Assembly (NCBI RefSeq): GCF_001897285.1
Contig: NZ_MKSM01000128.1
Coordinates: 27,912-91,911 of the forward strand
DNA length: 64,000 nucleotides
From: Nitrobacter sp. 62-23
GTDB lineage: Bacteria > Pseudomonadota > Alphaproteobacteria > Rhizobiales > Xanthobacteraceae
Direction of reading: 5' to 3'
Shown: positions 11,790 to 40,110 of the stretch, one piece after another
Layout of the letters: every line of letters begins with the position of its first letter
Position numbering within the stretch: the first letter of the stretch is position 1
The notes under the pieces: model-generated
What the model was told of the DNA's origin: nothing
Database searches by the model: none
The model's input: the letters and a program-made list of their open reading frames with translations, nothing else
Program-made: the position numbers and the translations under genes

Positions 11790-14339
11790 ATGACCGAGCC
11801 GAACAGACTGATTCGTGACGTTCCCGAGCACCGACCTGCCGCCGGTGGCATTGCCGCGCGCGCGCGGGCGGCGGCAGCACCGTCGTATCTTGCCGGGCTC
11901 AATCCGGAACAACGCGACGCGGTGGAAACACTGGACGGGCCTGTTCTGGTGCTGGCCGGTGCGGGCACCGGGAAGACCCGCGTGCTGACGACCCGCATCG
12001 CGCATATCCTCAGCCAGGGCCGCGCTCGCCCCGGCGAAATCCTCTCGGTCACCTTCACCAACAAGGCCGCGCGCGAGATGAAGCAGCGGCTTGGCCAGAT
12101 GCTCGGCCAAGCCGTGGAAGGCATGCCGTGGCTCGGCACCTTTCATTCCATCGGCGGCAGGATTCTGCGCGCACACGCGGAACTTGTGCAGCTCAAGTCC
12201 AATTTCACCATCCTCGATGTGGACGACCAGATCCGCCTGCTCAAACAGCTTCTGCAAGCCGACAACGTGGACGACAAGCGCTGGCCGGCGCGGATGCTCG
12301 CGGGATTGATCGACGGCTGGAAGAATCGCGGCCTGACGCCGGCCCAGGTGCCCTCGGGCGAAGCGGCCGTGTTCGGCAACGGTCGCGGCGGCAAGCTCTA
12401 CGCCGCCTATCAGGCGCGGCTGAAAATCCTCAATGCCGCGGATTTCGGCGATCTGCTTCTGGAGAACATCCGCCTGTTCCGCGAACATCCGGATGTGGTG
12501 CGGCAATACCAGAACCGCTTCAAATTCATCCTCGTCGACGAGTATCAGGACACGAACGTCGCGCAATATCTGTGGCTGCGATTGCTGTCGCAAGCGCCGA
12601 CACGCACTCCACTTCCCTCTCCCCTTGCGGGAGAGGGTGCTGAGCCGCAAAGCGGCGAAGCGGGTGAGGGGTCGCTGTCCGCAGCCAATCACCCCTCACC
12701 CGGCTCGCTGCGCTCGCCACCCTCTCCCGCAAGGGGAGAGGGTTCGTCAGCACCGATCGAAACTCTGCGACAGAAAAACATCTGCTGCGTCGGCGACGAC
12801 GACCAGTCGATCTACGGCTGGCGCGGCGCCGAGGTCGACAACATCCTGCGCTTCGAGCACGATTTTCCCGGCGCCAAGGTGATCCGTCTGGAGCGCAACT
12901 ATCGCTCCACCGGTCATATTCTCGCCGCCGCCTCGCATCTGATCGCACATAACGAAGGCCGTCTTGGCAAGACGCTGCGCACCGAGGACGTCGATGGCGA
13001 GAAGGTCACCGTCACGGGGTCCTGGGACTCCGAGGAGGAAGCCCGCGCCATCGGCGAGGAGATCGAACAGCTTCAGCGCGCCGGCGAGAAGCTGAACGAG
13101 ATTGCGATTCTGGTGCGCGCCTCGTTCCAGATGCGCGAATTCGAAGACCGCTTCATCACGCTCGGCCTGTCCTATCGCGTCATCGGTGGCCCGCGCTTCT
13201 ACGAACGCGCCGAAATCCGCGACGCGCTCGCCTATCTGCGCGTCATCAACTCCCCGGCCGACGATCTCGCCTTCGAGCGCATCGTCAACGTGCCCAAACG
13301 CGGCCTGGGCGAGGCCACAGTGCAGATGCTGCACGAGATTGCCCGCAAGCGGCGCATCCCGCTCAGCGAGGCCGCCCGCGCCGTCGTCGAGACCGACGAG
13401 ATGAAGCCGAAAGCGCGCGGCTCGCTGCGCGCCTTGCTCGACTGCTTCGATCGCTGGCGCGCGCAGCGCGACACCATGCGGCACACCGAGCTTGCCGAGA
13501 TCGTGCTCGACGAAAGCGGTTACACCGAGATGTGGCAGAAGGACCGCTCGGCCGACGCCGCGGGCCGGCTGGAGAACCTGAAAGAACTGGTGCGCTCGAT
13601 GGAGGAATTCGAGAACCTGCAGGGCTTTCTCGAACACATCTCGCTGGTGATGGATCGCGAAGGCGGCGCGGATGAGGATGCCGTCTCCCTCATGACACTG
13701 CATTCCGCCAAGGGACTCGAATTCGACAACGTCTTTCTGCCCGGCTGGGAGGAAGGACTGTTTCCGCATCAGCGCGCGCTGGATGAGCAGGGACGCGCCG
13801 GCCTCGAGGAAGAACGCCGGCTCGCCCATGTCGGCCTGACTCGGGCACGCCGTCGCGCAAAACTCTACTTCGCCACCAACCGGCGCATTCATGGCTCATG
13901 GTCGACGACGATCCCCTCACGCTTTCTCGACGAACTGCCCGCGCAAAATGTCGAGATCACGGAATCGAAGGGCGGCTCGGGCTGGGGCGGAACGGGCGGC
14001 TATGGCCCCTCGCGCTTCGACAATATGGAGTCCTTCGGCTCGAGCTATGCGACGCCCGGCTGGCAGCGCGCACAGGCCAACCGCGGCCGCGGCGGCTTCA
14101 ACGAGGCCGGCGCGGCATATGCCGGCAGGTCGAATGCGAAGCGCGCACCGGTCACCATCGAAGGCGAACTGGTCGCCAAGTCCAGCGGCACAACGTCCGC
14201 CTTTTCAACGGGCGACCGGGTCTTTCACCAGAAATTCGGCTACGGCAAGGTGACGCGGATCGACGGCAACAAGCTGACCATCGCCTTCGACAAAGCCGGC
14301 GAAAAAAAGGTGGTCGATAGTTTCGTGGAGCGGGTGTAG
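11790..14339 (+). CDS. uvrD: UvrD/PcrA-type superfamily 1 DNA helicase
   Basis: LNPEQRDAVETLDGPVLVLAGAGTGKTRVLTTRIAHIL...DEYQDTN...CVGDDDQSIYGWRGAEVDNILRFE...LMTLHSAKGLEFDNVFLPGWEEGLFPH. Start inferred at MTEPNRL. Confidence 0.93.
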   Translation: MTEPNRLIRDVPEHRPAAGGIAARARAAAAPSYLAGLNPEQRDAVETLDGPVLVLAGAGTGKTRVLTTRIAHILSQGRARPGEILSVTFTNKAAREMKQRLGQMLGQAVEGMPWLGTFHSIGGRILRAHAELVQLKSNFTILDVDDQIRLLKQLLQADNVDDKRWPARMLAGLIDGWKNRGLTPAQVPSGEAAVFGNGRGGKLYAAYQARLKILNAADFGDLLLENIRLFREHPDVVRQYQNRFKFILVDEYQDTNVAQYLWLRLLSQAPTRTPLPSPLAGEGAEPQSGEAGEGSLSAANHPSPGSLRSPPSPARGEGSSAPIETLRQKNICCVGDDDQSIYGWRGAEVDNILRFEHDFPGAKVIRLERNYRSTGHILAAASHLIAHNEGRLGKTLRTEDVDGEKVTVTGSWDSEEEARAIGEEIEQLQRAGEKLNEIAILVRASFQMREFEDRFITLGLSYRVIGGPRFYERAEIRDALAYLRVINSPADDLAFERIVNVPKRGLGEATVQMLHEIARKRRIPLSEAARAVVETDEMKPKARGSLRALLDCFDRWRAQRDTMRHTELAEIVLDESGYTEMWQKDRSADAAGRLENLKELVRSMEEFENLQGFLEHISLVMDREGGADEDAVSLMTLHSAKGLEFDNVFLPGWEEGLFPHQRALDEQGRAGLEEERRLAHVGLTRARRRAKLYFATNRRIHGSWSTTIPSRFLDELPAQNVEITESKGGSGWGGTGGYGPSRFDNMESFGSSYATPGWQRAQANRGRGGFNEAGAAYAGRSNAKRAPVTIEGELVAKSSGTTSAFSTGDRVFHQKFGYGKVTRIDGNKLTIAFDKAGEKKVVDSFVERV
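12615..12742. repeat. Palindromic repeat inserted in frame in the helicase gene
   Basis: 23-bp perfect inverted repeat CCCTCTCCCCTTGCGGGAGAGGG (12615-12637) / CCCTCTCCCGCAAGGGGAGAGGG (12720-12742), with inner gcgggtgaggggt/acccctcacccgg arms. Confidence 0.92.
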
Positions 14340-26095: not shown

Positions 26096-27307
<1,212 letters not shown>

Positions 27308-27341
27308 CCGCCAGAGGTGGCGGTCCTTTCGTGCTGTTGAC

Positions 27342-27674
27342 CTGGTGTGGTGGCTCTGACATTCGCTTCAGTATTGCCGCGAGTCCGACAAGCGAATGTC
27401 AGAGCCAAAACCACACCAGAATATTTTATTTTGCTAATGTTCCCATGGTTCTAACATTCGCATAACAACTCGCTGCGAAGTGATGCGAATGTTCGAACCG
27501 GAACACTAGTACCCGCTTTCCGAAGTTCGTGAGACATCGCAACACCCCCCTTGACGAACTTCGGAAAGCAAGGGGTACTAGTAACTTTATGATTCTAGTA
27601 CCGCTTTCGATTTGAAATTCCCGAAGATGAACCCGCTGCAAGTGGTGCAGGAATTTCAAATCGGCGGTACTAGA
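27342..27674. repeat. Array of four bulged stem-loop elements (A 27342-27419, B 27438-27505, C 27505-27582, D 27594-27674)
   Basis: Each is an inverted repeat with a single 3-nt asymmetric bulge and a 19-28 nt loop, read directly from the sequence. See findings. Confidence 0.9.
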
Positions 27675-27676
27675 TG

Positions 27677-29029
27677 TCAGTCGCGGCGACGCGAAATGAC
27701 GTAGGATTCGTCGTAGAACCAGAGGCCGTTGTGCTTGCGCAAAACCTCCCTGGTGGCGTCCAGATAGCGGCCGCTTTGGGTCATCTCCGTCAACCGGTCG
27801 TCTTCGACCTGGGCAACGTAAACCGCCGCATTCCACGCTGCGAAGGCCGTCGAGGTACCGATCGATCCCGTGACCTCATTGGGCAGCGCTTCCATATCGT
27901 AGCGAAAAATCGAACGGTGATCGGCATAAGCGTTGAAATTAAGGTCGCGCCCCACCGAGCCGAGCTCGTATTTCACAGCGCGCAATAGCTCATGACGGCT
28001 CACGGCGAAAGGGTTTTCTCCGGGCCAGACCGCCTGGACGATCTCCAGCCCGGGATCACCACCGTGAGAATGAATTCCTATCAAACGCCCGCCGGGCCGC
28101 AACGCCCGCGCCAGCGGGGCGATGATCCGTCGGGCCCTGAAATTGAGGGAAGACCTGGCCCGGTAAGGCTGCGAAGCGATCACCAGATCGAAGTTGGCTT
28201 CGACCCGCCCTGCCCGCGGGATGACCGAATCGAGCAGGAACTGGTGGTCTTCCCGGTAGATCACCAGGACGACCGGCCGCTCGTAGATCGGCATCCCCGT
28301 GACCGGACTGACGTTCGCTCGCCAGTTCTCCTCGAGATATGGCCACAGGTCCCGGATCTGCGTCTCGAACTCGCCCGAGGATGTCCCCCGCAGCGGCACC
28401 TCGCGCCATACCGTGCCGGCCGCGGCCTGGGGTGAACGGGGCGCAAGCCATGGCGCTTCCGCGTAGTGCATGTTGGTCAGCACCATGACGGTCGCCGGAT
28501 GCTCGAAAAGCCGGTCCGGCGCCTTGTCGAGCGTCAGCTTGATGTCCTCGAGGCTGAGTTCCTTGCCCGCGACATAGAACGGCATGTGGGGAAAGCGGAC
28601 GTGCATGGAGCGCATCACCCGCGCCAGCACGGTGCCGTCGCCGACGCCCGCGTCGAACACCCGCAGCGCCGGCGGGCGCGGGTGAATGCTGCCGAACTCC
28701 AAAGCGACGCGGTCGGCGATGACGCGCTTCTCGCTGCAGGTATGGACGAACAGCAGATATTTCTGCCGGTTCTCGAAAAAACGGAAATTGGCGCGGGGAT
28801 CGCGCCGCTCGATCGGCTCCGGCCGGCGGATGGAGGCCGCGCCATCCGGCGAGCCCGAGGCGATACAAGCCTCGATCCGGTTCAGCGTGTCGATGGTGAT
28901 GCGCTTGCCCTCGCGCAGCCGCTGCACGAGCTTGCCGTCATTGACGGCGCGCCGGCCAAAGGTCGATTCCGCCATCCCGGCCCGGCGGCAATAGTCGGAT
29001 ATCTGGCTCAGCAGCTGGTCGTTTGTCAC
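27677..29029 (-). CDS. SAM-dependent methyltransferase-like protein with N-terminal helix-turn-helix-like region
   Basis: N-terminus TNDQLLSQISDYCRRAGMAESTFGRRAVNDGKLVQRLREGKRITIDTLNRIEA (HTH-like), then LRVFDAGVGDGTVLARVMRSMH motif I. Probable GTG start. Confidence 0.72.
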   Translation of the reverse strand: MTNDQLLSQISDYCRRAGMAESTFGRRAVNDGKLVQRLREGKRITIDTLNRIEACIASGSPDGAASIRRPEPIERRDPRANFRFFENRQKYLLFVHTCSEKRVIADRVALEFGSIHPRPPALRVFDAGVGDGTVLARVMRSMHVRFPHMPFYVAGKELSLEDIKLTLDKAPDRLFEHPATVMVLTNMHYAEAPWLAPRSPQAAAGTVWREVPLRGTSSGEFETQIRDLWPYLEENWRANVSPVTGMPIYERPVVLVIYREDHQFLLDSVIPRAGRVEANFDLVIASQPYRARSSLNFRARRIIAPLARALRPGGRLIGIHSHGGDPGLEIVQAVWPGENPFAVSRHELLRAVKYELGSVGRDLNFNAYADHRSIFRYDMEALPNEVTGSIGTSTAFAAWNAAVYVAQVEDDRLTEMTQSGRYLDATREVLRKHNGLWFYDESYVISRRRD

Positions 29030-29247
29030 AGTGGTTCGATATGGGCCATATGAATGGGCAACAAAAATGAAGTTAGCCTTCCTATCACCATCTGCCCACC
29101 ATTGAAACCCTTGCCGGCATCTCCCTGCCGATCCGGATTTCAAATCCTCTATGACGGCCGCGGACGCCTCGTCAGCCCCGCGCCCGTCTGCTAAGACGCG
29201 GCCCTGACCGCCGCCTCCGGCGGCCGCCTGCCGATAGGTTTATTTCG

Positions 29248-33258: not shown

Positions 33259-33537
33259 ATGCCCCATCCAGCGCGCCGAATTCCGATCCTGCTTTGCGTC
33301 CTGCCGATCGTATGCAGCCTGGGGGGATGCGGCAGCATCAATTCGCATCTGGCCGCCGGAATGGGCGACGCGATTCCGCAATGGGCCGGCGGACTGCCCG
33401 CGGACGCGCCGCCACGACCCGGCACTGCGAAATACGACGAGATGATGAAGGAGCGTGAACGCGAGCGTCTGACGCCGAAGACAAACGACCCTGCCGCTCA
33501 GCCGTCGAACAACAACGCCATGGGCGCGATCCACTAG
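33259..33537 (+). CDS. small putative lipoprotein
   Basis: MPHPARRIPILLCVLPIVCSLGGCGSINSHL; lipobox-like LGGC. Confidence 0.6.
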   Translation: MPHPARRIPILLCVLPIVCSLGGCGSINSHLAAGMGDAIPQWAGGLPADAPPRPGTAKYDEMMKERERERLTPKTNDPAAQPSNNNAMGAIH

Positions 33538-33737
33538 AGTCTTTCACCGTTTCATGGAAACAGTGAAAGACTCTAGGCTCTTGATTGACGCGTTTTCTTC
33601 ACGCGAACCGGTATCCACTTCGCTCGAAAACGCTATAGAGTTTGTTTCAACTGGCATTGAACCGGACTCCTGCTTCGTCCTTTTGATTGGAGCATCCTAT
33701 CCGAAAATCGGTTTCCACTTTTCGGGATCATGCTCTA
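33537..33737. repeat. Composite intergenic repeat cassette (three repeat modules in series)
   Basis: GAGTCTTTCAC hairpin (33537-33573), GACGCGTTTTC module (33577-33637), agagtttg...ggatcatgctc double-hairpin module (33639-33737). Confidence 0.88.
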
Positions 33738-39305: not shown

Positions 39306-40110
39306 TACCAACGGCCCTAAGGATTGACTGTTGCCCAAGTGCGGCTTGTGATTGAGGCGATGCGATCTGGATCGTTTGCGAAGAAGTTCCAGGCTTCGCA
39401 GGTTGTGGCGACGATATCGTCGTAGTCGTCGAAGACGGTGATGGCGAGCTTGTTGGCGCGCAGGTACTCCCAGACATTTTCAATCGGATTGAGCTCGGGC
39501 GCATAGGGCGGCAGCTGCAACACAGTGACGTTGTCCGGAGTTCGGAGGGTGCCGGCACCGTGATCGCCGGCGCCGTCGAGGACAAGAACGGCATGTGCGC
39601 CGGGTGCAACCTTACGGCTGATTGCCGCCAGATGCAGCGACATCGCCTCCGCATTTGCCGTCGGCATGACAAGACCCGCGGCGACGCCACGTTGCGGACA
39701 GGCGGCACCGAAGAGATAAGCCCAATCGTAACGTCGATCGCGGGGCGCGCGAGGCCGTGAGCCACGCATGGCCCACACTCGTGTCAGCGTGCCCTGCTGG
39801 CCGATCCGCGCCTCGTCCTGGAACCAGATTTCGATCGGCTTGCCTTGGGCGCGAGCGGGGTGATGATCGCAGCAAAGTTTTTTTGAACGCTTCCTGAGCC
39901 GCTTCATCGGCTTGCGGATGGCGGGGCCGCACCGAGAGCCGGCGGTAGCCGAGCTTGGCCAGAACCTTGCCGACCGAACGTTCGTGCAGTTATAGATCGT
40001 CTGGTGCGGACACAGCGCAAGGCGGTCACCCATCAGATTCCGCGACGCCGATGTTGTGGAAAGGCTGGAAACAAGCCGCCGATAACACTGCAAGATCACG
40101 TTGGCGCAAC
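39305..40110 (-). mobile_element. IS630-family transposase, frameshifted
   Basis: KPIEIWFQDEARIGQQGTLTRVWAMRGSRPRAPRDRRYDWAYLFGAACPQRGVAAGL...VLQLPPYAPELNPIENVWEYLRANKLA; the N-terminal part is split between frames near an A7 run. Confidence 0.88.

Follow-up and report, generated by a model that had tools for sequence, protein, structure and literature searches.

The question raised by this locus is what a run of strongly structured DNA represents between a methyltransferase-like gene and metK in the 64,000-nt stretch of DNA analysed here (the window). A first-pass annotation had read the region as four consecutive bulged hairpins, and both an inverted-repeat search and folding recover all four (A to D), together with their orientation (+,-,+,-) and their 3-nt bulges (A AAA, B ATG, C AAG, D AAA), which in a common orientation lie on the 3' arm, 9-10 bp from the base. 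The 369-nt region folds with an energy of -182 kcal/mol, while dinucleotide-shuffled versions reach -103 +/- 6 (z = -12.6, 0/100), and three of the six hairpins with exact 12-bp arms in the window fall inside the array, with 0-2 such hairpins in each of 20 random windows. With the limits of the hairpins refined by means of a covariance model (CM), the features of the locus are the following:

26096..27307, minus strand: metK, the downstream neighbour (ORF with a methionine adenosyltransferase sequence; matches annotated metK genes)
27342..27419, plus strand: hairpin A, left-type, of unit 1 (CM match at G000:C128:55253-55330, E = 1.7e-20; inverted repeat), with the foot CTGGTGTGGT/ACCACACCAG, an AAA bulge at 27407-27409 and the core GACATTCGC
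27420..27433, no strand: AT-rich linker of unit 1, 14 nt (from the sequence)
27434..27509, minus strand: hairpin B, right-type, of unit 1, with an ATG bulge (CM match at C128:55345-55420, E = 4.2e-17); its outermost foot pairs are partly mutated
27506..27509, no strand: CTAG common to units 1 and 2, the serial insertion junction (from the sequence)
27506..27581, plus strand: hairpin C, right-type, of unit 2, with the foot CTAGTACCC and an AAG bulge (CM match at L001 1672-1747, 69.1 bits)
27582..27594, no strand: linker of unit 2, 13 nt (from the sequence)
27595..27673, minus strand: hairpin D, left-type, of unit 2, with an AAA bulge (CM match at C128:55506-55584, E = 4.3e-17)
27677..29143, minus strand: methyltransferase-like gene (ORF; relatives at the locus), whose stop codon and the outer CTAG of hairpin D are 3 nt apart

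Apart from the array, a small CCGCC...GGCGG hairpin stands just before metK (window 27308-27331); it recurs in many Nitrobacteraceae metK leaders and is possibly a native metK regulatory feature. In Afipia genomes (L067, L064, L068) the metK/methyltransferase-gene junction carries a different repeat, GTGTTTTC...GAAAACAC, indicating that small repeats have entered the junction on more than one occasion.

The repeating unit of the array is not the single hairpin and is instead the inverted pair (A+B, C+D). Each unit is ~165-170 bp long and consists of a hairpin (+), a short AT-rich linker of 12-14 nt and a hairpin (-), such that its outer ends are inverted; the linker falls in this range in 82/82 inverted pairs measured in a survey that accepted hairpin pairs with gaps of 5-30 nt. 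The hairpins are 76-79 nt long and follow a common plan, with CTAG at both feet, a foot of ~10 bp, the 3-nt bulge on the 3' arm, an inner stem of 14-17 bp and a loop of 20-30 nt. Three subfamilies are distinguished by features that both hairpins of a unit have in common: type I units display a CTAGTGG... foot with an ACATTYG core, type II units a CTAGTGT... foot with a GAAGTTCG core, and type III units, which include C+D, a CTAGTACC... foot. Unit A+B joins an ACATTCG core to the GTGT foot, and does so in its two hairpins alike. Thus, the partners within a unit match in foot (GTGG, GTGT or GTAC) and are similar in core (ACATTYG or GAAGTTCG), and these features co-vary between subfamilies; this joint change of foot and core at both ends suggests their recognition by a common protein.

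A further feature of many units is GANTC, the CcrM site, at position 11, in the stem adjoining the bulge, which occurs in one hairpin of 30/34 distinct units in the surveys of the host's family and class, these surveys having used the best model matches and hence being biased towards the consensus. Counted separately, exactly one hairpin bears the site in 15/17 distinct family units, 15/17 class units, 23/41 host units and 2/6 plasmid units, and both hairpins in none. The site is absent from the window's own units (A+B and C+D). As background, alphaproteobacterial genomes contain fewer GANTC sites than expected (PMC3973325).

The units are widely dispersed. A BLAST search with the array region returned 71 matches in the host genome, the hairpins around these matches being of one architecture, and the C+D pair has host copies with 94% identity at G000:C29 and 88% identity at C139. 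The covariance model (R1), built from 20 diverse hairpins, scores at least 150 hairpins across the host genome, nearly all in +/- pairs, and 50 to at least 77 in each of the 8/8 other genomes of the genus searched. This genus is probably Nitrobacter, judging from the closest named relatives of the methyltransferase-like gene. Beyond the genus, it gives matches in 14/28 further genera of the host's family, none in 24 genomes from other families of the order, and matches in 19/384 other Alphaproteobacteria genomes in a class-wide search. Copies also occur outside the family, as well as on plasmids and phage contigs, with a range extending from Sphingobium to Rhizobium plasmids; an IMG/VR search yielded eight contigs carrying the element, the phage records searched gave no nucleotide match, and type II units gave none in plasmids. 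The earlier proposal of a family of structured elements with compensatory change is accordingly borne out, and the covariance-model search that it had called for shows the bulged hairpins to be abundant elsewhere in the host and its relatives. We did not find a description of the element in the open literature searched.

The element is mobile, as the empty metK site of relatives and the uninterrupted, single-CTAG counterparts of occupied sites demonstrate. In relatives whose metK junction could be extracted, the intergenic stretch is 33-141 nt long and the array hairpins are missing. A host unit (L151) has the form CTAG-unit-CTAG, its counterpart in G001 (L219) having a single CTAG, with several other relatives at the host's own sites being too diverged for this comparison to be informative. 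In Martelella, a plasmid-borne copy splits the reverse transcriptase of a group II intron (CGATGG-CTAG-unit-CTAG-AGGCGCC), and the Rhizobium sp. 007 allele of this site (L327) is uninterrupted with one CTAG (CGATGGCTAGAAGCGCC). Likewise, a DNA methylase is split by a copy on a phage contig (TTCACG-CTAG-unit-CTAG-GCCGTG); with its flanks joined, the methylase aligns with intact ones from phages along 97/97 aa. Thus, occupied alleles have two CTAGs and empty alleles (L219, L327) a single one. This difference would arise if 4 bp were duplicated on insertion, if only the TA inside CTAG were duplicated, or if an element already ending in CTAG went in next to a CTAG; all three routes fit. Since CTAG is left at both ends, a further copy is able to insert at an end of the first; the shared-CTAG arrangement of B and C is also found at other loci of the host genome (e.g., L004, L018), and at C6:29942-30274 a type II unit has taken up a type I unit at its inner CTAG, between linker and hairpin.

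Other palindromes of the window were also recorded. A second CTAG-bounded palindrome (CTAGAGTCTTTCACCGTTTCATGGAAACAGTGAAAGACTCTAG; 33534-33576) adjoins a GACGCGTTTTCTTCACGCGAACCG repeat, and palindromes like CTAGAGTCTTTCACCGTTTCATGGAAACAGTGAAAGACTCTAG flank several twin-hairpin units, which are inserted at the palindrome's CTAG (L018, L140, L159). A very long GC-rich palindrome at 12627-12730 (CCCTCTCCC...GGGAGAGGG) is unrelated to the twin hairpins.

The placement of the units is conspicuous with respect to stop codons: the stop codon of a neighbouring ORF lies inside the terminal CTAG in 13/36 arrays, a count to be read against the chance expectation that an ORF running into a unit ends at the terminal CTAG in one frame of three. 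Orthologous genes in G005, G006 and G004 end at the same (C)TAG, and the loci of such relatives (L217, L222, L221) give no hairpin match. Insertion at such a (C)TAG regenerates the stop, as seen in two cases with empty relatives and likely in more, and selection would tolerate an insertion that does so. Plasmid copies in Aminobacter, Agrobacterium and Bradyrhizobium lie at or close to gene ends within apparent operons.

We then weighed whether the hairpins are kept as RNA or as DNA. The genes on either side of the array are on the same strand, and their co-transcription would carry the array into RNA; it could then in principle serve as a structured regulator within the metK leader or the 3' UTR of the methyltransferase gene. 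The stems show compensatory change. In the R1 alignment of 20 hairpins, 19/26 pairs have changed on both sides, the covariation being 0.58 versus 0.21 in shuffled alignments and the paired cells 95.9% versus 75.7%; paired double changes exceed single-arm changes (126 versus 82), with the excess holding even within subfamilies. However, a structure kept as RNA is expected to show a clear excess of G.U pairs on its strand. In the bulge-on-3' orientation, the stems of 113 distinct hairpins comprise 2630 Watson-Crick pairs, 39 A.C, 22 G.U and 21 other mismatches, and on the reverse strand there are 39 G.U versus 22 A.C, 11 of these at one position; with G.U not above A.C, a role at the DNA level is favored over one in RNA. 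Further, the array is absent from the metK junctions of relatives, the hairpin family is dispersed genome-wide, and Rfam gives nothing above its curated threshold, the sub-threshold matches being nearly all to microRNA hairpin families. The metK-leader role raised in the first-pass annotation therefore finds no support, as a conserved function, in the hairpin-free 33-141-nt junctions or in the pairing, and we regard an RNA regulator at this site as extremely improbable; a local polar effect of the array on metK is possible. The bulge is itself conserved (AAA in 71/113 and TAA in 17/113 distinct hairpins). In two hairpins it has given way to a perfect palindrome, by loss of the AAA at L004 1670-1742 and by gain of a TTT opposite the bulge at L028 1478-1556, which looks like arm-to-arm templated (quasi-palindrome) correction; part of the compensation may, therefore, be mutational rather than selected.

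As for what moves the units, their build, with bulged hairpins paired in inverted orientation and a foot tetranucleotide that is conserved, is like that of REPINs, and the same annotation had likened the array to REP/BIME elements moved by a RAYT (Y1 HUH) transposase. A CTAG-ended element inserted beside a CTAG would give identical empty and occupied alleles, and partial Y1_Tnp matches occur in G006 and some other genera. Nevertheless, the Y1_Tnp domain (PF01797) is not detected at E<=1 in the host genome, where controls were positive, or in 7/8 same-genus genomes, though near-identical copies imply recent movement; moreover, hairpins of 76-79 nt with a CTAG tag are unlike REPs, which are 20-40 bp long (PMC3733652) and tagged by GTAG. 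Mobilization by a RAYT is hence unsupported and, in our estimate, highly improbable. The units might alternatively be MITEs that depend on an IS630/Tc1-mariner transposase, with duplication of the TA within CTAG. Consistent with this, the host has DDE_3 genes, a small repeat linked to IS630 has precedent in RUP (PMC2229807), and a search of IS loci with R1 found one hairpin, beside an IS630 element with ends GAGCGTTTTCC inserted at the hairpin's flanking CTAG (L260). Yet, DDE_3 is patchy and was not found in G004, G007, G008, G018 and G032, all of which are rich in copies, and the IS630 ends are unlike those of the units, rendering this source distinctly unlikely. A driver from the IS5 family, making 4-bp duplications of CTAG/YTAR, would have a parallel in MITEPsy1 (100 nt), an element that resembles ISPsy2 and for which the duplicated sequence is CTAG or YTAA (PMC3189936). 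Indeed, both the host (L256) and G016 (L162) have units at whose inner CTAG there is sequence reading like IS5-type transposases, but these elements (GGTCGAGACTC..., GGCCGTGTTGACGG...) end differently from the units, and we consider this origin unlikely. The insertion of both IS5-type and IS630 elements at the CTAGs of units indicates that CTAG is a shared target.

More generally, none of the transposase families tested (Y1, IS481, IS630, IS701) is present in every carrier: IS481 (NF033577) has no match above cut-off in the host and is abundant in G005 and G006, and IS701 (DDE_5) was detected only in G002, G003 and G004. Ends matching those of the units were not found in the IS481, IS630 and IS701 elements surveyed, and 1.5 Mb of loci yielded neither a lone terminal repeat nor an autonomous partner with unit ends; mobilization in trans is on this account an inference. 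Genes lying between neighboring units in L172 and L185 seem ordinary, judged by sequence. The window has a match to an IS630-type (DDE_3) transposase at 39416-39829 on the minus strand (G000:C128:67327-67740). In L260 (1-1225), which comes from another genus, the two CTAGs of the hairpin are flanked by the end of an IS5-like element and by the IS630 element; the ends of the latter resemble GAGCGTTTTC-type repeats that are common near units and may be IS630-derived MITEs.

Taken together, the array very probably represents two tandem insertions of a small, non-autonomous, CTAG-inserting twin-hairpin mobile element of the MITE/REPIN-like kind. Such an element inserts at a palindromic CTAG and leaves CTAG at both ends, as the nested, tandem and empty sites show, with both unit ends probably being recognized by a trans-acting enzyme, given their co-changing foot and core. 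Purifying selection leaves the copies mostly intergenic and often exactly on (C)TAG stop codons. The hairpins would be maintained as DNA structures, by the mobilizing enzyme and/or by arm-to-arm correction, and not as a metK riboregulator. A more specific version, in which a class-wide family is served by a novel enzyme that recognizes folded (single-strand or cruciform) AAA-bulge hairpin ends and inserts at CTAG, with CcrM methylation possibly gating movement, is conceivable but doubtful; the notion of gating comes from the presence in many units of one GANTC, in only one of the two hairpins. With two or three end specificities that co-change at both ends, a CTAG target and precise empty sites, the mobilizing enzyme can be sought directly. 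The element also offers a clean case for telling DNA-level from RNA-level conservation of palindromes, and its insertion explains hairpins that are positioned exactly at stop codons.

Among known repeats, the closest described architecture is that of the CcrM-associated intergenic repeats (CIRs) of Caulobacter and other Alphaproteobacteria (PMC2229807), which likewise have two long inverted-repeat arms with a linker and a GANTC in one arm in many copies. CIRs are, however, ~110 bp long, with the GANTC at the terminal loop, and are not found inside genes (PMC2229807); judged by this description, our element differs in its length of 165-170 bp, its GANTC in the stem beside the bulge, its CTAG feet, its AAA bulge and its insertions inside genes. 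With REPINs and REP/BIME arrays it shares the inverted pair of bulged hairpins (82 pairs analysed), high copy number, organization in arrays and non-autonomy, and it departs from REPINs in having CTAG in place of GTAG, hairpins of about twice the length or more, no RAYT in most carriers and a CTAG at both ends after insertion. Like MITEs in general, it is short and of high copy number, with terminal inverted repeats and an apparent target duplication (two CTAGs against one) relative to the empty allele. MITEPsy1 of Pseudomonas syringae (PMC3189936) is similarly short and non-autonomous, with terminal inverted repeats and a CTAG (or YTAA) duplication; it differs in being 100 nt long with 18-nt terminal repeats resembling ISPsy2, and the portion of its description at hand does not present a twin hairpin with a linker. 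Br-REP1 and Br-REP2 of Bradyrhizobium (PMC5082802) are also palindromic intergenic repeats from the same bacterial family, but their consensus differs and none of their motifs occurs in the host loci tested. Finally, the RIME, AB,C and Sm repeats of Rhizobium and Sinorhizobium (PMC2573895) are palindromic or structured, intergenic and from Hyphomicrobiales; RIME repeats are annotated in the S. meliloti chromosome (PMC2573895), whereas R1 gives one weak partial match (E = 0.0036) in a 3.7-Mb S. meliloti record, setting the element apart from RIME/ABC. We file it as a variant among the non-autonomous palindromic mobile repeats.
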